In this document: one piece after another, positions 11,015-27,069 of the stretch
Position numbering within the stretch: the stretch's first letter is position 1
Layout: the number at the start of each line of letters is the position of its first letter
Origin: a virus
IMG/VR virus record: IMGVR_UViG_3300035099_000516
Span: 1-27,316 of that record
DNA length: 27,316 bases
Direction: 5' to 3' (one strand)
The notes under the pieces: model-generated
Seen by the model: the letters and a program-made list of their open reading frames with translations, nothing else
The model's database searches: none
What the model was told of the DNA's origin: nothing
Program-made: the position numbers and the translations under genes

Positions 11015-12457
11015 ATGAAGTGCGCAGTCGGCTCATACACCGGGAACGGCACGGATAACCGCGCCATCACGGGCGTGGGTTTCCAGCCCGACCTGGTCAT
11101 CATCAAGAACCGCGTATCGAACTGGGGCTGCTTCCGCACGTCGGGGATGACGGGCGACAGCACCGCTTACTTCGCCCAGGCGGCAGCCAACTTCGCTGGC
11201 GGCATAAAGAGCCTGGATGCGGACGGCTTCACCGTCGGCACCCATGCGAGCGTCAACACCAGCGGCCAAGTCTATGACTGGCAGGCCTTCAAGGACGACG
11301 ACGCGGGCGACTTCAAAGTCGGCTCCTATGTCGGCACCGGCGTGGACAACCGCAACATCACCGGCCTGGGATTCCAGCCCGACCTCGTGTGCCTGAAGGT
11401 CAACGGCACCGCGCAGGACGGCGTGTGGCGCACCGCCTCCAACTCCGGCGATCAATCCATGCGATTCTCCGCCGCCGACGATGCTGCGGATCACATCCAG
11501 AGCCTGCTCGCCGACGGCTTCCAGGTAGGCCTGTCCCAGAACGCGAGCGGCTCCACCTACCACTGGTTCGCCTTCAAAGCGGTGGCTGGCTTTATGGGCT
11601 ACGGCGCCTACACCGGCGACGCCACTGACAACCGCAACATCACCGGCCTCGGCTTCCAGCCCGATCTGCTCTGGGTCAAGGGGGCGGGCCTGATTCGCTG
11701 CGCTGTGCGCCCCTCGACGCTGACCGGCGACTCCACGGTGTTCTATAGCTTCAACACCGCCGCCGCGGACTGGATTCAGGCACTGCTGAGCGATGGTTTC
11801 CAGGTCGGGACGCAGCTCAATGCAAGCGGGGTCGCCCACCGCTATTTCGCCTGGAAAGTCGGCGCGACCAGCGCCCCCACCGAGAAGTCCTCCTCTGATT
11901 CTGGGGCCGGCGCCGAAAGCGCGAGCGTCGTGGAGGCGTACTCGGGCTCCGATTCCGGCGCTGGAACCGAAAGCGTGCTCCTCGCCGCCGAGATATCGCC
12001 CGCCGACTCCGGGGCGGCGACCGAGACCAGCGAACTCGTCACCGAGGGCGAAGAGATCCAGAAGACTGGGGCCGATTCCGGCGCGGCGACCGAGACCGCA
12101 GCCCTGGCCACCGCGGCGGCGGCGCTCGATTCAGGGGCGGCAACCGAAGTCAGCGAGCTGCTCGTCCCGGTGGCCTCCGCCGACGCAGGGACCGCGACCG
12201 AGACCGCCCTGATCTTCCCACTGGTCGACTTCTTCGAACTTGCGGTGACGGTGACGCCCGCGCTGACCGACCGATTCGAGCTGATCGCGCAGGTCTTACT
12301 CGACCGCGTCGCCGACTCATTCGAACTTCAGGTGGATGTCTCGCCCCTGGTGGCCGACCCATTTCTGCTGATGGCGACGATCATCAACCAGGACCAGGAG
12401 GCCGCAGCCGCCCAGGCGGTGATCGCGCCGACCGCCGAGGTGGCGTTCCTGGAGTAG
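11015..12457 (+). CDS. Repeat-rich tail fibre/adhesin protein (triple GFQPDL domain)
   Basis: A 480-residue protein made of three kinds of tandem repeat. Residues 4-93, 101-188 and 196-281 are three copies of a roughly 90-residue domain that begins with a G.YTG...DNR.ITG.GFQPDL motif, ends with a DGF.VG..... .Y.WFAFK-like segment, and resembles the DUF7483-type domain seen in phage tail proteins. Residues 295-404 contain six DSGA.TE-type units at irregular 15-25-residue spacing. Residues 405-456 hold four units ending in FEL or FLL. The C-terminus is Ala-rich. It probably forms an elongated fibre that recognises the host surface. The ATG at 11015 has no strong Shine-Dalgarno, so coupling to the gene 18 bases upstream is likely. 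The domain name is from memory, not from a search. Confidence 0.65.
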   Translation: MKCAVGSYTGNGTDNRAITGVGFQPDLVIIKNRVSNWGCFRTSGMTGDSTAYFAQAAANFAGGIKSLDADGFTVGTHASVNTSGQVYDWQAFKDDDAGDFKVGSYVGTGVDNRNITGLGFQPDLVCLKVNGTAQDGVWRTASNSGDQSMRFSAADDAADHIQSLLADGFQVGLSQNASGSTYHWFAFKAVAGFMGYGAYTGDATDNRNITGLGFQPDLLWVKGAGLIRCAVRPSTLTGDSTVFYSFNTAAADWIQALLSDGFQVGTQLNASGVAHRYFAWKVGATSAPTEKSSSDSGAGAESASVVEAYSGSDSGAGTESVLLAAEISPADSGAATETSELVTEGEEIQKTGADSGAATETAALATAAAALDSGAATEVSELLVPVASADAGTATETALIFPLVDFFELAVTVTPALTDRFELIAQVLLDRVADSFELQVDVSPLVADPFLLMATIINQDQEAAAAQAVIAPTAEVAFLE

Positions 12458-16453: not shown

Positions 16454-16668
16454 CTGAGGCGAGCTTCTGTTGCCCCCACGGGCCATACGTCATCCTGATC
16501 AACAAAGACGAGGGCGGAAGCATCATCAGGATCGAGCGTAGCGGCGATCCGCCGTTCGCGGTTGAACTGGCCGTGAGTGACAAGTTCGTCGGCGAGGATA
16601 TACGGCGCGGGCCGGAGACGCCGCCGGAGACGCGGATTCTCGACCGCGCGCCGGATAGGGAGAGGTGA
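16450..16668 (+). CDS. Small hypothetical protein between holin and endolysin
   Basis: A 72-residue protein from GTG 16450, overlapping the preceding stop (GTGA). GGAGG lies about six bases upstream. It contains two Cys residues near the start (SFCCPHGPY), a strand region (VILINKDEGGSIIRIERSG), and an acidic to basic C-terminus rich in Pro, Glu and Arg. No domain is recognised. Overlap at both ends suggests coupled translation with holin and endolysin, and so a lysis-module accessory role. Confidence 0.5.
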   Translation: MTEASFCCPHGPYVILINKDEGGSIIRIERSGDPPFAVELAVSDKFVGEDIRRGPETPPETRILDRAPDRER

Positions 16669-17153
16669 TACGAAAAATGAAGCCCTGGAAACCGACCAAG
16701 GCTGCTCACCTGCTGGTGCTTGCGCTGAAAGAAGTCGGCAAGCCCTACGTGCTCGGCAGCGAAGGGCCGTCTGGGGAATCGCTCAAGACCTGGGACTGCT
16801 CCGAACTGGTGCAGCACCTGCTCGCCCAAGTCGGCGTGAAACAGGTGACAGATTCCAGAGGCCGCGTCACTCCCATTGCCGTCTTCGACCGCGCGGGATT
16901 TCAGTGGGAGCGGTCGCGGCCCATTCCGTTTGAGGTCGGCGTGAAACTGCCCGGTGCTTTGCTCTTCATCCAGTCGGCTTCTGCTTACCGGGGCAAGCCT
17001 CACAACATCGGTCACGTGGCGATCTCGCTGGGCAACGGCTACATCCTGGAGGCGCGCGGGAAAGCCTATGGTGTCACCATCGGGCCGGTGCGACCGTCGT
17101 TCAACCTGGCGACCAAGGTGCAAGATCTATATGCCCCGGCACGGGTGGCGTGA
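16665..17153 (+). CDS. NlpC/P60-family endolysin
   Basis: A 162-residue predicted cell-wall hydrolase. The GTG at 16665 overlaps the previous stop; an ATG at 16677 is the alternative start and would remove four residues. Catalytic Cys45 lies in TWDCSELVQ, the usual 'fDCSgl' motif, and His117 in HNIGHVAISLGNG, the 'HVgIylG' motif; Glu129 follows in YILEARG. The segment PGALLFIQ before the His corresponds to the family's 'pGDLvff'. NlpC/P60 enzymes cleave peptide bonds in peptidoglycan stem peptides. There is no signal peptide, so export would need the nearby holin. Length is normal for a single-domain enzyme, with no separate cell-wall-binding domain. Confidence 0.85.
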   Translation: MIRKMKPWKPTKAAHLLVLALKEVGKPYVLGSEGPSGESLKTWDCSELVQHLLAQVGVKQVTDSRGRVTPIAVFDRAGFQWERSRPIPFEVGVKLPGALLFIQSASAYRGKPHNIGHVAISLGNGYILEARGKAYGVTIGPVRPSFNLATKVQDLYAPARVA

Positions 17154-17566
17154 TGGTCAAGGGAGCGCATGAGATGGGGGCGGCGCCCGAGTTCCGAGAG
17201 GAAGTCGAAGCTTGGGTCGCGCGCCTGCTCGGCCCGGAGTGGGAGGTTGTGCTCGGAGCAGACGACACTCTCGCCGACCGGGCAGCCGTGAGCGTCTGCG
17301 TTCGTAATCGCGAGGCGACCATCATGGTCTGCCCAACCCGGGACGTCCGGCGGAACTCGACCGCCTGCCACGAGGTGGTGCACATCCTCCTCCGCCGCAT
17401 GCACGACGTCGCCTGGCGGATCATAGACCAACTGCCAGAGCCGCTGCGGCAGTTCGCGCGGGATACGTGGGTGGATGCGCACGAGGAAGTGACGGAGGAT
17501 GTGGCCAGGGCATTCATGCGAGCGTACGCAGCCCAAGCCGAAACACAGAAAGGGGACACCGTATGA
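17153..17566 (+). CDS. HExxH zinc metallopeptidase-like protein
   Basis: A 137-residue protein from ATG 17153, in a TGATG junction with the endolysin stop (a GTG at 17150 is possible). Residues 73-77 are HEVVH, the zinc-binding HExxH motif, in TACHEVVHILLRRMHD. A second acidic helix about 45 residues later (AHEEVTEDVARAFMRAY) can supply the third ligand. The N-terminal half has a helix and two strands (WEVVLGADD, REATIMVCPTR), like compact minimal metallopeptidases of the ImmA/IrrE or SprT-like type. Possible roles are cleaving a repressor or processing during lysis. The motif is clear, the substrate unknown. It sits between endolysin and small genes, an atypical spot for ImmA. Confidence 0.6.
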   Translation: MVKGAHEMGAAPEFREEVEAWVARLLGPEWEVVLGADDTLADRAAVSVCVRNREATIMVCPTRDVRRNSTACHEVVHILLRRMHDVAWRIIDQLPEPLRQFARDTWVDAHEEVTEDVARAFMRAYAAQAETQKGDTV

Positions 17567-17909: not shown

Positions 17910-17947
17910 CTCCGGGCTGCCACAGCACCATGCCCCCAGCCCTGGCG

Positions 17948-17972
17948 GGCCCCGGTCTGAACCACCGGGGCC
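17948..17972 (+). terminator. GC-rich hairpin after the lysis genes
   Basis: Arms GGCCCCGG (17948-17955) and CCGGGGCC (17965-17972) with a nine-base loop. A short TGCGTCGTTT follows, a weak U-tract. It lies in the 223-base gene-free stretch 17910-18132, which otherwise contains a conserved leader-like element (see 18051). Confidence 0.4.
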
Positions 17973-18050
17973 TGCGTCGTTTCCAGGCCCTTGGGGCTTG
18001 ACTTTCCTCGGCCCCAGCGTGACGTATGTAGCCCGGTCCGGGAGGTCTGG

Positions 18051-18105
18051 AAAACAGGCCCGCACATTCTCGCAACCTCAAGGAAATGTGTACGTGACCG
18101 CAGCC
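18051..18105 (+). promoter_or_regulatory. Conserved upstream element, copy A (before amidoligase)
   Basis: About 50 bases here match 20111-20164 at about three of four positions (36 of 49 over the ungapped part). Shared landmarks are GGCCCGCA, ATTC, TCAAGG, AATGT and TGAC in the same spacing. The element ends about 28 bases before the amidoligase ATG and contains an AAGG plus a GTG that would start a nine-codon peptide. It may be a duplicated promoter/leader or operator. Confidence 0.45.
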
Positions 18106-18132: not shown

Positions 18133-19077
18133 ATGAAGCAGGAGCAGGCAGCCAGCACGAAGGCCGAGGAGTACACCATCGGAGTAGAGATCGAATGCCT
18201 CATCCCCAGCCGCGAGGTGCGGCGGCTCGGCATCCAGATAGGCTCCTACCACCACGGATGCCCGCTGCCAGCGCCCTTCCCGGCTGGATGGACGGCGGAG
18301 CGCGACGGCAGCCTGCGCACTGACCGACGGGGTTACGTCCCGGTCGAGATTGTCAGCCCGGTGCTGCGAGGGCGCGCCGGCATCGAGCAGGTCAAAGAGG
18401 TCGCCAAGATTCTCAAGGGCCTCGGGGCGACGGTCAATAGCACGTGTGGATTCCACGTTCACATTGGCGCAGCCTCGGTCGCCGGGTCAGACCACGCGGC
18501 GCAAGCCGAATGGGTGAGCAAGCTCCTCTACCAGACCGCCATGCACGAGCAGGCGCTCTACGCATCCACCGGAACCCGTCGGCGAGAGAACGGGCACTAT
18601 GCCCGCAGCATCAAGGAGCAGCGCCGGCTGGCGGACGACGTCCGCAAGGCCCCCAAGACCCGCAAGGCCGAGCGGCTGCGCGACCGCCTCTACTACAGCG
18701 CGCGCTACAGCGTCCTCAACCTCACCAACCTCTTCACCCACAAGCCGACGGTCGAGTTCCGCTACGCAGCAGGCACGGTCGAGTGGGTGAAGATGCTCGG
18801 GCACATCCAGACCTGCCTGGCGCTCGCGGAGAGGGCGACCGAGCAGGCCAAGCTGGACTGGGACGGCATCGCCAGCGAGCGCACCTACCACCAGAACGGC
18901 ACGGGCGCCAGGGCGCTCGACCGCTTCTTCTACCTGACCGGCTGGACGAAGGGCCGCCGCGACGTCGGCAAGCCGGTGGTGCAGATGGCGGGATGGATTG
19001 CTGACCTCGCGGACCTCAACGCGGTGAAGCGCGAACTCAAGCGGCTCGCGCGGAAGTACGATGGGGCGGCGGCATAG
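18133..19077 (+). CDS. Predicted amidoligase (PF12224-type)
   Basis: A 314-residue protein from ATG 18133 with a close AAGG. It carries the motifs of the predicted amidoligase family of the glutamine-synthetase/COOH-NH2 ligase fold: GVEIE (17-21) at the start of the first strand, RDGSL (57-61), EIVSPVL (72-78), then GFHVHIG (106-112), and a later THKPTVEFRYAAGT stretch with conserved Glu and Arg. These positions supply metal, ATP and carboxylate contacts in the family, which is predicted to form amide bonds on peptides or small molecules. A class II glutamine amidotransferase two genes downstream could supply ammonia or hydrolyse amides, a partner type reported for amidoligases. In a phage it may modify cell-wall peptides, phage proteins or host metabolites. 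Substrate unknown. Confidence 0.75.
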   Translation: MKQEQAASTKAEEYTIGVEIECLIPSREVRRLGIQIGSYHHGCPLPAPFPAGWTAERDGSLRTDRRGYVPVEIVSPVLRGRAGIEQVKEVAKILKGLGATVNSTCGFHVHIGAASVAGSDHAAQAEWVSKLLYQTAMHEQALYASTGTRRRENGHYARSIKEQRRLADDVRKAPKTRKAERLRDRLYYSARYSVLNLTNLFTHKPTVEFRYAAGTVEWVKMLGHIQTCLALAERATEQAKLDWDGIASERTYHQNGTGARALDRFFYLTGWTKGRRDVGKPVVQMAGWIADLADLNAVKRELKRLARKYDGAAA

Positions 19078-19092
19078 GCCCGGAAAGGAACG

Positions 19093-19365
19093 ATGATGGT
19101 CAAGGAACACCTGCTGTGGGAGAGCGACCTGGAGGGCGCCGAGGGCGAGGTCAAGGCGCTGCGCCAGGTAGCGGGGCCGCCGGGTGACGGCCACTATCTG
19201 GACGTGATGCTGATGGACACCGGCGAGGGCACACCTGAGAGCGTCTTCCTGGTGGTCAAGGATATTGACGGCGAGAGCGCCCACATTCCCCTGCCGCTGG
19301 CGCGGCGCGTGGCAGAGGCGCTCCTGGACTTCGCGCGGGCGGCGGGAGTCAGGGGCAACGGCTGA
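19093..19365 (+). CDS. Small acidic protein between amidoligase and amidotransferase
   Basis: A 90-residue protein from ATG 19093 (a second ATG follows at 19096); GGAAAGGA lies four to six bases upstream. It looks like a single alpha/beta domain: HLLWESDLEGAEGEV, then YLDVMLMDTGEG, a strand SVFLVVKDIDG, and a helix RRVAEALLDFARAAG. The strand-strand-helix layout is common in phage accessory proteins. Its stop overlaps the next start (19365), and the position inside the amidoligase-amidotransferase cassette suggests an accessory or substrate-carrier role. No motif supports either. Confidence 0.5.
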   Translation: MMVKEHLLWESDLEGAEGEVKALRQVAGPPGDGHYLDVMLMDTGEGTPESVFLVVKDIDGESAHIPLPLARRVAEALLDFARAAGVRGNG

Positions 19366-20054
19366 TGTGCGGTATCTTCGGGTACGCAGCCGAGGGCAGG
19401 ATGACGCCCGCCCAGCAACGCCTGGCGATGGACCTCATGGCAGAGCTGGCCATCGCCAGCGAGGTGCGCGGGCGAGATGCCGGCGGCTTCGCCGCCCTGT
19501 GCGCCAATGGCGAGCTGATAGCCCGGCGGCAGCCGGGACCGGCGGGGCCGCTTTTCCGCGGGCAGGAGTGGCGCGGTCTGCGGCAGCGACGCATCCTGAT
19601 GGCCATCGGGCATACCCGTCTGGCGACCCACGGCGCGCCCGCCATCAACGGGAACAATCACCCGCACCTGGCTGGCGAGTGGGCACTGGTGCACAACGGC
19701 TGCATCCCCTACCACGAGCACAAGGCGCGGCGCCTAGGCGTCAGGCTCCACAGCCAGTGCGACTCTGAAATCCTGGTGCATGTGCTGCGGCGATGGGGCG
19801 AGCGCAAGGGCCCGCTGGTGTGCCAGGGGCTGTGTGGCTCGCAGTCGGTGCTGGCCATCAACGCCGCCGCGCGGGTGATGCTCGCCTGGAGCAATGGGCT
19901 GCAGCCTTTGGCGGCTTTCCGAGTGGATGGGTTGCCGGCGGTGTGGTTCGCCTCGACGCTGGAGATCGCAACTGGGGTGGCGGCGCGCCTGAGCCTCATC
20001 GTACAGCCCGCGCAGGTCGAAACGGACCAGTTGTACCGGCTGGAGGCACCGTGA
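19365..20054 (+). CDS. Class II glutamine amidotransferase (Ntn-hydrolase)
   Basis: A 229-residue enzyme from ATG 19365, overlapping the preceding stop by one base. It starts MCGIFGY, so removal of Met exposes Cys2, the nucleophile of class II (GATase_6-type) amidotransferases. Other active-site motifs are RGRDAGG (35-41), GHTRLATHG (82-90), NNHPH (97-101), ALVHNG (107-112) and DSE (133-135). It releases ammonia from glutamine or acts on a related amide. No synthetase domain (asparagine synthetase, GFAT or PurF type) follows, so the partner is separate, most likely the amidoligase two genes upstream. The C-terminal part has strands and a NGLQPLAAFRVDG segment typical of the fold. Length is that of a stand-alone domain. 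Confidence 0.85.
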   Translation: MCGIFGYAAEGRMTPAQQRLAMDLMAELAIASEVRGRDAGGFAALCANGELIARRQPGPAGPLFRGQEWRGLRQRRILMAIGHTRLATHGAPAINGNNHPHLAGEWALVHNGCIPYHEHKARRLGVRLHSQCDSEILVHVLRRWGERKGPLVCQGLCGSQSVLAINAAARVMLAWSNGLQPLAAFRVDGLPAVWFASTLEIATGVAARLSLIVQPAQVETDQLYRLEAP

Positions 20055-20110: not shown

Positions 20111-20164
20111 AAAAAGGCCCGCAGATTCCGGCGGATTCAAGGCAATGTACACATGACAGCGGCC
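20111..20164 (+). promoter_or_regulatory. Conserved upstream element, copy B
   Basis: Second copy of the roughly 50-base element at 18051-18105, 30 bases before the GTG at 20195. It also contains AAGG followed by an ATG (20153) in frame with the next gene, so part of the conservation may reflect a ribosome binding site and start codon. Confidence 0.45.
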
Positions 20165-21492: not shown

Positions 21493-21621
21493 GTGCATCT
21501 GCGCGGCGATGCGGCGGCGCGCACCCAATCCCTGCGGCGCGACCGGATATATCGCTAGCGAGGTTGCTTTGGGATGTCGAAAAGGGATGGTGCCGGCTTC
21601 CGGTGTTCGCCCATGTTCTGG

Positions 21622-21627
21622 TATACT
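21622..21627 (+). promoter_or_regulatory. Extended -10 promoter for the five-gene operon
   Basis: TATACT (21622-21627) is preceded by TG one base upstream (TGGTATACT), an extended -10 for a housekeeping-type sigma factor. TTCCGG 18 bases upstream (21598-21603) is a poor -35. It lies about 50 bases before the ATG at 21675 and in the only gene-free gap (21493-21674) before the operon. The gap also contains a 10-bp perfect palindrome (TCGCTAGCGA, 21552-21561). Confidence 0.5.
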
Positions 21628-21674
21628 CCAGGAGTGGGACTACGGGAGCCGTACCGATAACCCAAAGCGACCCG

Positions 21675-22355
21675 ATGACACGACATGAAGTCTCAGACAG
21701 CATGGGGAGGCTCGACGAGGGACGCACTGCCCAGGACGGCAGCAGGGCCTGCTTCCTGTGCCGGCCGCGCGAGGACTGGGTCTACCTGGAAGCGGCGGAC
21801 CTCTTCTGCATGGTCGGAATCGGTCAGCTCATGGAGGGCTACTCGCTCATAGCGACTCGCGATCATATCCCGAGTATGTTTGACCTTCCGGAGTCTATGG
21901 TCGAGCGCTGCGGTACCTTCAGACAAGAGGTCCGTGCGACAATCCTCCGCGTCCTGCGCCAGCGTTGCATCATTACAGAGCATGGCAGAGTGCCTATTTG
22001 CGACTACTATGACAGAACTGCCAACGAGACCCATTGCTACCATGCGCACCACCTGGTGTTCCCCGGGGATGTCGAACTGCGACCGTATCTCGAAAGGAAT
22101 GCCTTCAACGTCACGCGGTTCGGCAGCTTCGCGCAGGCATGGCGAGCTCGGATCGCTGGTGAATACCTCTACTACGAGGACATGGAAGGCGGGGTGACGG
22201 TTGCTACCGCTCGGCCCAGACTGCCTCGACAGTTCTTCCGCATGCTTGTAGCGGAACAGTTGGGTCTGCCGGAGCGGGCCAACTGGCGCACTTGCTCCAG
22301 GGATGAGCAGCAGCTCACACGCACCGCCAAGCGGCTGCGAGAAAACGACGCATGA
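21675..22355 (+). CDS. HIT-like nucleotide hydrolase/transferase
   Basis: A 226-residue protein from ATG 21675; an upstream TTG at 21564 precedes the promoter and is rejected. The N-terminal half follows the HIT (histidine triad) layout: CFLC (26-29), LFCMVGIGQLMEGYSLI then RDHIPSMFDLP (62-72), a helical stretch, ITEHG (100-104), and HCYHAHHLVFPG (120-131). HIT proteins use an H-x-H-x-H motif, with the middle His as nucleophile, to hydrolyse or transfer nucleotides. Here H123 and H125 fit, but the third His position holds Leu, with an extra His at 126. Residues 132-226 form a C-terminal region with REX-type basic helices of unknown role. First gene of the five-gene operon; its stop overlaps the next start. 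Confidence 0.6.
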   Translation: MTRHEVSDSMGRLDEGRTAQDGSRACFLCRPREDWVYLEAADLFCMVGIGQLMEGYSLIATRDHIPSMFDLPESMVERCGTFRQEVRATILRVLRQRCIITEHGRVPICDYYDRTANETHCYHAHHLVFPGDVELRPYLERNAFNVTRFGSFAQAWRARIAGEYLYYEDMEGGVTVATARPRLPRQFFRMLVAEQLGLPERANWRTCSRDEQQLTRTAKRLRENDA

Positions 22356-23581
22356 GAAAGCCAGGCCGAGGGAATCGGTTACCTGAGCAGGCGAGGGCGG
22401 GTCTCGGTGTCGTGCGAGACCTGTTCCGCGCCGCCAAGGTTAGGACGCCCGAAGGCAACGAAGCGTGGGGGCAGTTCCTGGACTTTCATCCAGGCTCCAG
22501 GCAGTATGGAGTTTACGGCACGGCAGCAGGGGTCCGTGCGCTAGTGTTGGCGGGTGAACCGCCCGTAGTAGCCGAGGTCGCAGGCGCGGCCGACCAACTA
22601 AAGCTAGAATGGGAGCGCAAGACCCAAAAGCAGACCGAGAAGACGCGCTATCCGGACCCATGTATCGCCTATAAGGCTGCCTGGCTGCTTGAGGCACTAT
22701 GTCCCGACCAGGCGCAGATCAGCGCCACGCCAGTCGAGGCATGGTTCAAGGAATTGTTTGCAAGGCAGCTTCCGGACGGCGGATGGGGCGACTATTCCTG
22801 TCCGGCTGATACGGACGCGCACTCGAGCTCGTCATCGCCGCTTGCCACGGCGTTCGTCATCGGCTGTCTTTCTCGCTATCCTGGCTTCGTTGGCGACCTG
22901 GACCGAAGAGACAAGGCGATCAGCCGCCTCCGCCAGGAGGTAGCTGGCCATCCCGGGTTGGACCCAGCTGTGCTGGCCATTGCCCTATGGGCATTGTCGA
23001 GGCTTCCTAAGCCATCTGAATCCGAGTGTGGCCTGGCGAGACTCCTGAGGCTGCAGCTTATTCGGCATGTCAGCCACCTGCGAAAGAAAGGGGTGGGCCG
23101 CAGTTACGTGTTTTTCTACGCCGTAGGCGACCGATACCACTATCTGCACATACCAGTGCTTGTCGTCGCGTTGCTTGCTCTACTCCAACACGATCAGCGC
23201 CTCGCCTACGACAGGAACGTGAGGCTGGCTACGCGGGCAGTTGTGGAGCGGGCAGCACGCGAAGGGGGACTACGAGCCGAGGATACGTCTCGATTGTCCA
23301 CAGTGGACCACTGCTGGCTTGCGCTACTCCTGAGGAGGGTCGTGGAGGTTGGCGACCGATGGCAGTCGGCCCCGTTCCGAGAGGCCATGCTTGACCCCAG
23401 AGCCTGCTGGTGGAAGGGCATCTCCGGGTGGAGCGCATTGCTAGTAACCGGCGTGTCAGGCATTTGGGTTGGGCAGACCTATGGCCCCCCTTATATGGTC
23501 GTAGGGCTTGGTGCCTCAGTCCTGCTCCTCGGCCTGCTTGTCAACCTGTTCACCGACTGGCTCCAACTCTTGCGAAGATGA
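22352..23581 (+). CDS. Terpenoid-cyclase-like toroid protein with C-terminal membrane segments
   Basis: A 409-residue protein coupled (ATGA) to the HIT-like gene. Residues about 50-340 have the helical repeat pattern of the prenyltransferase/squalene-oxidase superfamily (alpha/alpha toroid): helix pairs ending in Gly-Trp turns, notably FARQLPDGGWGDYSCP (136-151), which resembles a QW motif, followed by ATAFVIGCLSRYPGF and similar units. No DXDD cyclase motif is visible, so cyclase activity is unlikely. Residues about 355-405 hold two hydrophobic segments (SALLVTGVSGIWVG and MVVGLGASVLLLGLLVNLF). The protein may therefore be a membrane-anchored binding or effector protein. Its ancestry is inferred from pattern only; it could be another helical-repeat protein. 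Confidence 0.5.
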   Translation: MRKPGRGNRLPEQARAGLGVVRDLFRAAKVRTPEGNEAWGQFLDFHPGSRQYGVYGTAAGVRALVLAGEPPVVAEVAGAADQLKLEWERKTQKQTEKTRYPDPCIAYKAAWLLEALCPDQAQISATPVEAWFKELFARQLPDGGWGDYSCPADTDAHSSSSSPLATAFVIGCLSRYPGFVGDLDRRDKAISRLRQEVAGHPGLDPAVLAIALWALSRLPKPSESECGLARLLRLQLIRHVSHLRKKGVGRSYVFFYAVGDRYHYLHIPVLVVALLALLQHDQRLAYDRNVRLATRAVVERAAREGGLRAEDTSRLSTVDHCWLALLLRRVVEVGDRWQSAPFREAMLDPRACWWKGISGWSALLVTGVSGIWVGQTYGPPYMVVGLGASVLLLGLLVNLFTDWLQLLRR

Positions 23582-24837
23582 TTTTCTACGACCTGCTGCA
23601 CGGCGTGATATCGTTCGACGGTCTGGCCCTGCGGCTGCTGATGTCGCCGGAGGTACAGCGACTTCGCGAGGTCTCGCTAATCAACACTACAACACCAAGC
23701 TGCGCTTCCCTGAGCGACGTGAAGCGCTTCGCTCACACCCTGGGCGTCGCGCACCTTGCGGAAGCCGTTCAGGAGCGGCTCCACGGCATACCGCCTGACC
23801 AGAGAGGCCTGGTGCAAGCGACCGCAGTCCTGCATGATGTCGGAACCGGTCCCTTCGGTCACCTGCTGGAGTATCTGCTGCGCGAGCGGTTCGGCTGGGA
23901 CCATGAACGACAGCTGCGGTCGGTGTTGCGCGGTGACTATCGCCCAGAAAACATACACCACCAGATCTACCACGGGGGGACACTCAAGGTGCGTGACATC
24001 CTCGATGCCGCGGGAATCGACTGGGAGGACGTGGCCAACCTTGCCGAAGGAAAGCCACCACTCGGTCCTGTGCTTAATGGGACGCTTGATCTGGACAACG
24101 TTGACAATGTTGCCAGAATGGCTGCGCATTTCGGCCTTCAGACGATCTCAGGTGTCAGGCTCCGCGCTCTCGCATCCAGGATAAGGCCGGATGGTTGTGT
24201 GTCTCTGGACCCTGAGGCTATGGAACTAGTGCAGGAGTGGCAACGGCTGCGCGCACGCTGCTATGAACTGCTCATGTTTGATCCGGCGACGCTCAGTTGT
24301 CAGGCCATGCTGCATGATGCGATGCAAATGGCCCTGAATGAGGAGTTGATCGGACAGGAGTACTGGCACTACACCGAGGGCAAATTGCTGGACACGCTCG
24401 AACGGCATTCTACTACCGCGCGCTTGATGCAGCGGCTTCGGCGCGGCGACCTCTACGAGTGCATCGGAGTGTACTGGCTTCACGGCACCGCACTCAAGGC
24501 GGAGTGGGATGCTGATCTGAGGCAGAGCGTATCGTCAGAGCTAAGTCGGTCCTTAGGAGTCAAGATATCGCTGTATGCTTTCAGGGATCGAGGCGCTGTG
24601 TCAAAGGCCGTCGCCTTGTCAGACGAGAGCGGCCATCAGATCGTGGTGGGTGCAGATTCCAATTCTCTTGTCTGCGCGGTGTTCCGCATGAGCGGACATG
24701 ACATCAGAGCTGGCTGGCGCACGAGCGCTGCGGAGATACTTATCTCTGCTGTGGGCTGCGGTCCGGAGGCACTCATGCGCATCCCTTGCCCGGAGGAACC
24801 GTATGGAATCTCTAGTCAGACGTCGCTTCCGTTCTGA
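23578..24837 (+). CDS. HD-domain phosphohydrolase
   Basis: A 419-residue protein coupled (ATGA) to the toroid gene. The HD core is clear: FAHTLGVAHL with His53, VLHDVGTGPFGH with the His86-Asp87 doublet and His95, then WDHERQLRSVL, and LDLDNVDNVARMA with Asp173/Asp176. This H...HD...D order with 'HD.G..PF.H' is typical of dGTPase/SAMHD1-type and related HD hydrolases that act on dNTPs or other phosphoesters. A C-terminal region (about 190-419) of helices and strands may control oligomerisation or sense a ligand. HD proteins of this type occur in nucleotide-depletion antiviral systems and in cyclic-nucleotide turnover. It overlaps the methyltransferase gene by 35 bases. Confidence 0.75.
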   Translation: MIFYDLLHGVISFDGLALRLLMSPEVQRLREVSLINTTTPSCASLSDVKRFAHTLGVAHLAEAVQERLHGIPPDQRGLVQATAVLHDVGTGPFGHLLEYLLRERFGWDHERQLRSVLRGDYRPENIHHQIYHGGTLKVRDILDAAGIDWEDVANLAEGKPPLGPVLNGTLDLDNVDNVARMAAHFGLQTISGVRLRALASRIRPDGCVSLDPEAMELVQEWQRLRARCYELLMFDPATLSCQAMLHDAMQMALNEELIGQEYWHYTEGKLLDTLERHSTTARLMQRLRRGDLYECIGVYWLHGTALKAEWDADLRQSVSSELSRSLGVKISLYAFRDRGAVSKAVALSDESGHQIVVGADSNSLVCAVFRMSGHDIRAGWRTSAAEILISAVGCGPEALMRIPCPEEPYGISSQTSLPF

Positions 24838-26023
24838 GCTCCGTGGCATTGACTGGAGTTTCAATGGGTCGTCCCACAACGGAGCATTCGCAGCCATTCA
24901 CTGGTATCCGGCGCGGTTCATACCGGAGATACCAGGGACCCTCATCGGGTACTTCTCAGAGCCGGATGAACTCGTGTTGGACCCCTTTTGCGGTAGCGGC
25001 ACGACGTTGACCGAGGCTATGCGGCTCTGTCGCCGAAGCATGGGTGCCGACCTCAATCCTATTGCGACGTTGATTACGCAGGCAAGAACTGATGTTTCTC
25101 CAGCCGATGATCTTGCAGCGAAGTTCATGCTTCTGCAGGCAGAGGTAGAAAGACGCCAGCCCGACGTCCCGATGATGGGCATAGGAAGGAGCGCTTTGGC
25201 GCCGACTACTGTTCTCGCTCTCGACCGCGATACTGAGCTTCCGAGCGACGAATTGAGGTCGTGGTATGCTCCAGGAACACTGAGGCATCTGGATGCGCTC
25301 TCGCGGTCACTGCGGCTCTGGCCCCCGAAGGACGGCTTCCGCGTTATTGCTACAGCCTGCTTCTCCTCGGTGCTTCGTCGGCTATCCAGCCAGGAAGCAC
25401 ATTGGGGATACGTGTGTGACAATGTGAAGCCGAAGCAGTTGGTCGAGAAAGACGTCCTGGCAGTCTATTATGACCGAGTCAAAGACTTTCTGGAACTCAG
25501 GCAGCGCTTTCTCGGTCTGTGCGACAAGCGCTGGATTCGAAGGAAGATCAACCGACCACACATCGCCACAGGCGACGCCGGGGGCTTCCTCGAAACGATA
25601 GATGCCAATTCCGTTGACCTCATAGTGACATCGCCTCCCTATCTGAATGTGACAGACTATGTGAACTCCCAGCGGCTGACTTTCCTCTGGCTAGCACGAT
25701 GCCAAAGGGAGAGTCTTCGTCCCTCCGAGATAGGGGCGCGCTACAAGCGGTTCCGCAAGGACAGTCTTACCGAGTACATCCAGCGCATGACATTCTGCAT
25801 ACGCCAAATGGCCCGCGTGCTCAAGAAGGATAAGGTGCTTGCTTTTGTCCTCGGACAGTCCAAGAGTCATCCCGAATGCGTCGACGAGTTGGCGAGAGTT
25901 TGCGAGGCCGCGGGACTGCACATGCTTGAACGTTTGAGCCGTAGCATATCGCTGCAACGCACATTGGCACCTAGCGTACGCGACGAGGAGATCATGCTCT
26001 ACCGCAAGGGAGCCGGCAAATGA
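24803..26023 (+). CDS. DNA methyltransferase (N4/N6 type, TSPPY)
   Basis: A 406-residue protein. ATG 24803 has GGAGGA about six bases upstream; a longer frame to 24698 lies wholly inside the HD gene. AdoMet motif I is LDPFCGSGTT (59-68), followed by RRSMGADLNPIA; the region before it (AAIHWYPARFIPEIP, 30-44) matches the 'H.YPA.F' signature of an orphan methylase group. Catalytic motif IV is VTSPPYLN (275-282); TSPPY suggests N4-cytosine modification, though N6-adenine is not excluded. About 200 residues lie between motif I and IV, the order of alpha-class enzymes, so this region probably contains target recognition. No endonuclease is visible nearby. It could also modify RNA. It overlaps the next start (ATGA). 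Confidence 0.75.
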   Translation: MESLVRRRFRSELRGIDWSFNGSSHNGAFAAIHWYPARFIPEIPGTLIGYFSEPDELVLDPFCGSGTTLTEAMRLCRRSMGADLNPIATLITQARTDVSPADDLAAKFMLLQAEVERRQPDVPMMGIGRSALAPTTVLALDRDTELPSDELRSWYAPGTLRHLDALSRSLRLWPPKDGFRVIATACFSSVLRRLSSQEAHWGYVCDNVKPKQLVEKDVLAVYYDRVKDFLELRQRFLGLCDKRWIRRKINRPHIATGDAGGFLETIDANSVDLIVTSPPYLNVTDYVNSQRLTFLWLARCQRESLRPSEIGARYKRFRKDSLTEYIQRMTFCIRQMARVLKKDKVLAFVLGQSKSHPECVDELARVCEAAGLHMLERLSRSISLQRTLAPSVRDEEIMLYRKGAGK

Positions 26024-27069
26024 AGTTGGGCAACCTTGGTGAGCGTCGGATCATAGCAGACCTGCTCTACCCGCGTTACAGCGGAGCTGAGGGAATCAGA
26101 TACTGGGAGGACTGCGCGCTGCTGGAAGTGGATGGCGGATGCCTATTGGCAGTGACGACCGACCCTTGCCCTCGGCCCATGGCTGCGATTCTGGGGGAGA
26201 CTGATCTATACTACTATGGCTGGCTGCTGGGAACCATCAATCTGAGCGATCTCGCGGCAGTCGGAGCGCATCCCTTGGGACTTCTCACGTCGCTCACCGC
26301 GCCTGCCAGTATGGCCGTAGGTGACTTTGAAAGGCTACTGGATGGAATCGACGCCGTGTGTCGTCGCTGCGACACCAGGGTGATTGGAGGCAACATCAAG
26401 GAAGGCCCTGAACTGCAATGCTCCGGCACGGCGATAGGGCTGTGCGAGCGAGGGAAAGAGCTTCGTAGAAGTGGTGCCCGCCCGGGGGATCTCCTGCTAG
26501 CAGTCGGAGACCTGGGTGAATTCTGGGCCTATGCTTTGAACCGGCTTAGACGACTAGGTGTGCCAGAATCAAGTTTGGAACGCGGTCGGAGCAATGCGCT
26601 CACTCCAGTCCCCAAAATCCGAGAAGCAACCGCGATAGCATCTGTGGCCCGAGCCACCGCGTGCATGGATAACTCGGACGGCCTCTATGCATGCGCCAAA
26701 GAGCTAGCTCTGATCAATCGGTGCTCCGTAGTCATCGACTTCGCGAAGGTTCATTTCTCGCCCGGGGTCAACGAGGTTGCCAGGCGGCTGGGGGTGACCC
26801 CGCACAGGCTGGCCCTGGGATGGGGCGATTGGCAATTGGTGCTCACTGTAGCCCCTGATGATTTGGGCGCCATATCCTCTGCGGTAAGCGAAATCGAAGG
26901 GTCGGCGGTCTACGTTGTTGGTCGCCTGGCAGAAGGCCCGCCAACTGTGCTTCAGGCGCAGGACGGCAGAATCGGCGAGCTGAGGCCCGTGGATTCGGAA
27001 AGGTTCACTGCGGACTCTTGGTTCTCTGCGGGGATTGAGATCTACATCGCGCAGCTTCTCGGCGAATAG
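26020..27069 (+). CDS. ThiL/PurM-superfamily kinase-like protein
   Basis: A 349-residue protein coupled (ATGA) to the methyltransferase gene and last in the operon. It follows thiamine-monophosphate kinase (ThiL) layout: MKLGNLGERRIIADLL, WEDCALL (29-35) near the first metal site, LAVTTDPC (43-50), GTINLSDLAAVGA (71-83), VIGGN (121-125), PGDLLLAVGDLG (155-166), LTPVPKI (194-200) and MDNSDGL (216-222; ThiL usually has 'ADISDGL'). ThiL uses ATP to phosphorylate thiamine monophosphate, while relatives (PurM, HypE, SelD) activate other substrates through phosphorylation. No thi genes are near, and motif differences suggest another substrate. A role in supplying a phosphorylated or activated compound to the neighbouring enzymes is inference. 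Confidence 0.7.
   Translation: MKLGNLGERRIIADLLYPRYSGAEGIRYWEDCALLEVDGGCLLAVTTDPCPRPMAAILGETDLYYYGWLLGTINLSDLAAVGAHPLGLLTSLTAPASMAVGDFERLLDGIDAVCRRCDTRVIGGNIKEGPELQCSGTAIGLCERGKELRRSGARPGDLLLAVGDLGEFWAYALNRLRRLGVPESSLERGRSNALTPVPKIREATAIASVARATACMDNSDGLYACAKELALINRCSVVIDFAKVHFSPGVNEVARRLGVTPHRLALGWGDWQLVLTVAPDDLGAISSAVSEIEGSAVYVVGRLAEGPPTVLQAQDGRIGELRPVDSERFTADSWFSAGIEIYIAQLLGE

Follow-up and report, generated by a model that had tools for sequence, protein, structure and literature searches.

The window analysed here is a whole IMG/VR virus record of 27,316 bases, in which genes for a head-tail adaptor, a major tail protein, a tape-measure protein, a baseplate hub and a tail fibre are present. 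Three neighbouring open reading frames (ORFs) on its plus strand make up the locus of interest, whose position was given correctly in a first-pass annotation made from the letters of the sequence. They encode an amidoligase, a small protein of 90 aa, and a class II glutamine amidotransferase (GATase), the genes of the two enzymes being separated by 287 nt (Table 1). Taken together, the two neighbouring intact genes have the appearance of an amide-bond-forming system that is fed by glutamine. Given the low dN/dS of both enzymes and the recovery of the window's clade in both gene trees, the cassette genes are real and represent more than a chance arrangement.

Table 1 Features in and around the cassette, with positions in the window unless a locus handle is given
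Feature	Position	Strand	Remarks
NlpC/P60 peptidase, possible endolysin, outside the cassette	16665..17153	+	PF00877, E 2.3e-8
GC-rich stem-loop between the lysis-side genes and the cassette	17930..18000	+	Predicted fold -41.4 kcal/mol, z -2.4
TTGACTT...GTGACGTATGT element	17998..18029	+	Candidate promoter/operator of the cassette
54-nt direct repeat, left copy	18052..18105	+	40/54 identical to 20111-20164
Amidoligase (PF12224), 314 aa	18133..19077	+	Pfam E 2.3e-26; predicted glutamine-synthetase/YbdK-like fold
Small ORF, 90 aa, without family match	19093..19365	+	Not a conserved cassette member
Stand-alone class II (Ntn) glutamine amidotransferase, 229 aa	19365..20054	+	PF13522, E 1.5e-13
54-nt direct repeat, right copy, just 3' of the GATase	20111..20164	+	40/54 identical to the left copy
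Members of the insert family of about 150 aa	L115:3919-4359, L118:4946-5581, L132:4899-5345, L146:4943-5398		Plus 7 more loci

The two enzymes

Both family assignments made in the first-pass annotation held in profile searches. The first ORF matched PF12224 (Amidoligase_2) with 93.6 bits against a curated Pfam cut-off of 22, and PHROG amidoligase families were matched as well; the family was present in none of 14 control genomes, and a scan of genome contigs for the amidoligase gave no matches. The protein is 68-74% identical to its counterparts in nine related phages. All 13 sequences of an alignment share seven residues (E19, E21, D58, E72, H108, H110, and R210), and the acidic and histidine motifs GxExE, E.vSP, GxHxH, and EFR are kept.

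No solved structure close to the amidoligase by sequence was found. An AlphaFold2 model, for which the input alignment was shallow (13 rows), reached a pLDDT of 78 and a pTM of 0.83, and VIA-align gave Z scores of 10.1 for YbdK-like proteins, about 9 for glutamine synthetases, and about 8.5 for PafA/Dop. The model is also similar to plant glutamate-cysteine ligase. Its closest solved folds are YbdK / GCS2-type carboxylate-amine ligases (1tt4 and 1r8g), at approximately 15% identity, and we know of no GATase partner for ligases of this type. The Foldseek match to 1tt4 had an E-value of 2.1e-4 and a TM-score of only 0.38; because such TM-scores are modest, the model supports a glutamine-synthetase/YbdK-like fold class and leaves the details of the fold without support. 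ATP-dependent amide formation is the predicted activity.

The third ORF matched PF13522 (GATase_6) with 51.4 bits against a cut-off of 27, and its nearest solved structure is the glutaminase domain of GlmS (E 4e-12). Its N-terminus reads MCGIFG, with the nucleophilic Cys2 directly after the start methionine, and the residues of the glutamine site are intact. Of 69 sequences, 68-69 have C2, R85, T88, N111, G112, and D133, in keeping with the earlier description of Cys2 as an intact nucleophile. The ORF ends after 229 aa, so the enzyme is not a domain of a longer GlmS protein. Among the close relatives L012, L013, L015, and L016, dN/dS ranges from 0.06 to 0.13 for the amidoligase and from 0.09 to 0.18 for the GATase, so that purifying selection acts on both enzymes (0.06-0.18 overall).

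Linkage, gene history, and inserted ORFs

In all nine nearest relatives the GATase gene is the next one downstream of the amidoligase gene on the same strand, and the linkage that had been expected in other phages was borne out by a wider survey. With the GATase as seed, 43 of 44 records had an amidoligase domain no more than 2.5 kb away in the same orientation, one of the 43 matches lying below the Pfam cut-off. With the amidoligase as seed, a GATase lay downstream at 60 of 71 evaluable loci, and the gaps between the two genes at linked loci were mostly short or nil. These counts come from IMG/VR contigs that are partly redundant and therefore do not represent independent events. Of the two outcomes that the first-pass annotation had named as speaking against its reading, a missing family match and missing linkage in relatives, neither was found. 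Furthermore, the window's clade is recovered as a single branch in each gene tree, with support of 100 and 98, and the divergence of the two proteins is correlated (r 0.93, a value owed in part to a single distant pair).

Eleven evaluable amidoligase loci lack a GATase immediately downstream in the same orientation. In ten of them the entire record is without one, and in L150 one is present elsewhere. In the amidoligase tree, the lineages closest to the window's clade (L110-L113, L117, L135, L159, L168, and L172) have no GATase anywhere in their records. Because these nearest sisters are GATase-less, the ligase can live without its partner and does not always need a GATase as its source of ammonia. 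The same placement of partnerless sister ligases indicates that loss or gain of the partner took place on more than one occasion. A different arrangement was seen on one phage contig (L020 / L150), which carries two divergent amidoligase genes and a single GATase gene on the strand of the second.

The first-pass annotation had treated the three genes as a trio, which was not borne out for the middle one. The 90-aa ORF was not found in any of the nine nearest relatives, and the amidoligase and GATase genes abut or overlap in six of them. It had no match in Pfam, PHROG, or NCBIfam, no relatives of it were found in viral contigs, and it is not homologous to the ORFs inserted at the same slot in other phages; a conserved third member at this position was rejected accordingly. 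Its end overlaps the GATase start by 1 nt (TGATG), and on account of this overlap it may well be translated. Elsewhere among the relatives, a 65-aa ORF lies between the two enzymes in L012 and L013, and 545 nt separate them in L018.

An unrelated family of about 150 aa occupies the slot between amidoligase and GATase in 11 distant loci (L115, L118, L126, L127, L132, L141, L145, L146, L148, L157, and L170). Several of its members carry LHEFAHA, LHEFGHA, or LHEFRHA, that is, a HEFxH motif similar to the HExxH of zinc peptidases, and the motif is degenerate or lost in others. Scans of four members against Pfam returned nothing, and those against PHROG nothing significant.

Published relatives and proposed function

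Phage genomes with both an amidoligase and a GATase have been published before; the first-pass annotation, too, had named such partners as known for amidoligase families. They were reported in UFV-P2 and LUZ24-like phages, with an HNH endonuclease gene between the two in UFV-P2 (PMC3890496), in phage tf (PMC3517423), and, in a passage on OM43 phages, in those as well (PMC10580990). In podoviruses the same genes are called a peptidoglycan modification cassette, which is a hypothesis in that text too (PMC5498523), and prevention of superinfection was suggested as a role of amidoligase/GATase genes (PMC10580990, citing Iyer et al. 2009). The relevant passages of PMC5498523 and PMC10580990 cite no experiment behind the peptidoglycan or superinfection idea. 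In the cited literature, as far as its passages on these genes extend, phage amidoligases rest on prediction, and no biochemical test was found there.

The window's pair is a further example of this known pairing, which is common in phages, and not of the full podovirus cassette. Cassettes of the LUZ24/phiEco32/PSA-HP1 type (PMC5498523, PMC3890496; ctwe8250) have the same amidoligase and GATase as neighbours on one strand, but they add a gamma-glutamyl cyclotransferase and an ATP-grasp enzyme; ctwe8250 and UFV-P2 also have a PF14395-type ligase. Neither a gamma-glutamyl cyclotransferase (PF06094) nor a PF14395 COOH-NH2 ligase was found in the window, which is a fragment, or in the nine nearest relatives, among them records of 58-84 kb that were covered for the cyclotransferase; the positive control was matched in both searches. 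The ATP-grasp model PF14243, which missed its positive control, gave no match in the window and one 36 kb away in the record of L006. In Arthrobacter phage Salgado the same two enzymes adjoin, with approximately 25% identity for both proteins and a different genome position. The OM43 phages have both enzymes in the same genomes (PMC10580990), again at low identity and in a different genome position. The window's clade is a very small set by comparison, with two strongly conserved genes that abut in most members, and the GATase-less sister ligases offer natural comparisons. With so small a two-gene set, what phage amidoligases modify becomes directly testable with two proteins.

MurT/GatD and LtsA/AsnB-type systems likewise couple a glutamine amidotransferase to an ATP-dependent ligase, and they amidate peptidoglycan peptides. 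LtsA/AsnB is a fusion of the asparagine-synthetase type, whereas the window's ligase is predicted to be glutamine-synthetase-like. In MurT/GatD the ligase belongs to the Mur ligases and the GATase to class I (PMC3267633).

On balance, we lean towards reading the pair as a two-component amide synthetase that depends on glutamine, with a carboxylate of the peptidoglycan stem peptide as its most likely substrate. A two-component synthetase is suggested by the amidoligase family and its glutamine-synthetase-like fold, the intact GATase site, the linkage, the correlated divergence, the shared clade in the trees, and the published cassettes. Counted against it are the 11 evaluable loci without a downstream GATase, which include the nearest sister lineages, as well as the cyclotransferase and the phiEco32-type ligase of LUZ24/PSA-HP1-type cassettes, neither of which turned up in the window or the nine phages closest to it. 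The GATase would hydrolyse glutamine by means of its N-terminal Cys2 and release ammonia, which would be handed to the amidoligase. The latter would activate a carboxylate with ATP as an acyl-phosphate, in the manner of glutamine synthetase or YbdK, and then form the amide. Free carboxylates of peptidoglycan stem peptides or their precursors are the leading candidates because the same genes were named a peptidoglycan modification cassette in podoviruses and were given a suggested role against superinfection; by this analogy, peptidoglycan is perhaps the substrate. Such a change to the wall, made in the course of infection or in lysogeny, might for instance keep out competing phages or counter their endolysins.

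Other readings were weighed against such a synthetase. The amidoligase could instead use an amine to link two molecules, as glutamate-cysteine ligases and PafA do, and leave to the GATase a separate step such as trimming or glutamyl donation. The resemblance of the model to PafA, Dop, and plant glutamate-cysteine ligase would suit such a reaction, as would the existence of solo amidoligases and of two ligases around one GATase in many other phage records. We nevertheless consider it unlikely, as a supply of ammonia is what best fits a pairing that is nearly obligatory and a glutamine site that is complete. Still less probable is a modification of a host or phage protein, or of a nucleotide or DNA base, in place of the cell wall. 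Iyer et al. in 2009 (as cited in PMC10580990) reportedly proposed peptide modifications of proteins for ligases of this kind, and the pair lies near DNA polymerase genes in some phages, both of which would accord with such a target; yet neither thymidylate-synthase-type nor QueC genes, a context expected for base modification, turned up in the window or among its relatives, most of the records being fragments.

For Phage-ZRK32, which carries an amidoligase, a GATase, a glutathione synthase, and a cyclotransferase, a role in nitrogen metabolism was proposed (PMC10945688), and the window's pair could by extension be an auxiliary module that helps the host to assimilate ammonia. This we regard as very improbable: a GATase that consumes glutamine does not assimilate ammonia, and the cyclotransferase of the Phage-ZRK32 set was not found in the window. 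A more speculative version of the amide synthetase, to which we give little credence, would have the window's clade use a minimal two-protein enzyme, without cyclotransferase and second ligase, to amidate a target other than peptidoglycan, with the small, often HEFxH-bearing protein of distant relatives serving there as a third partner that handles the substrate.

Surroundings of the cassette

Upstream of the cassette lie the NlpC/P60 peptidase gene and then two conserved small genes. The peptidase is 81-86% identical in five relatives (L012-L016), nothing similar to it was found in L011, L017, and L018, and in L006 the endolysin slot holds an Amidase_3 instead. The amidoligase-GATase pair itself adjoins a DNA polymerase gene in L007, and exonuclease and helicase genes in L009. 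Given that the endolysin is exchanged between relatives and that the pair is placed elsewhere in other phages, the connection to lysis, which the first-pass annotation had drawn from the position of the cassette after the endolysin region, is weak and not general. Just after the endolysin, a small gene at 17150-17566 (77% identical to L006:2817-3299) encodes a metalloprotease-like protein with a CHEVVHILL motif.

Between these genes and the amidoligase, the GC-rich stem-loop is a possible transcription end and was not flagged by the terminator scan, and the TTGACTT...GTGACGTATGT element is a possible promoter or operator of the cassette. Nine of the ten phages in the window's clade have TTGACT at a distance of 65-139 nt before the amidoligase; the -10 match of the element is poor and not significant by shuffling, and promoter and terminator scans returned no site on the plus strand. 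The position of stem-loop and TTGACT element upstream of the amidoligase suggests that the cassette is a transcription unit of its own.

The two copies of the 54-nt direct repeat agree at 40 positions, against a best value of 38 for 60 random 54-mers of the window. A similar intergenic unit (about TTCTGCCGGATTGCAGGCATGACTCACATGA), operator- or promoter-like in appearance, lies upstream of the amidoligase in L015 (L015:5930) and L018 (L018:5941) and after the GATase in L011. Because such units recur near the cassette in these relatives, the direct repeat is likelier a regulatory element than the boundary of a mobile cassette.

Several further features were observed around the pair. L012, L013, and L015 share an ORF starting REFLYHGTTEGAVKAILQDGIMPRRGERPS directly after the GATase, which by eye resembles the ADP-ribosyltransferase/KptA type and is a candidate only. 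The tail-fibre-like protein encoded at 11015-12457 contains three DUF7483-type repeats, and five 46-nt repeats lie in 11948-12224. The right end of the window (21564-27069) carries CwfJ/HIT-like, HD (dGTPase-like), DNA methyltransferase, and ThiL/AIRS-like genes that are unlike the phage genes to their left, and perhaps represents host chromosomal sequence next to a provirus, or else an island of the defence type. Among genome contigs, only distant archaeal relatives were found for the ThiL-like gene (34-35% identity), and relatives of the HIT-like and ThiL-like genes again lie close together in Methanoperedens (L099).
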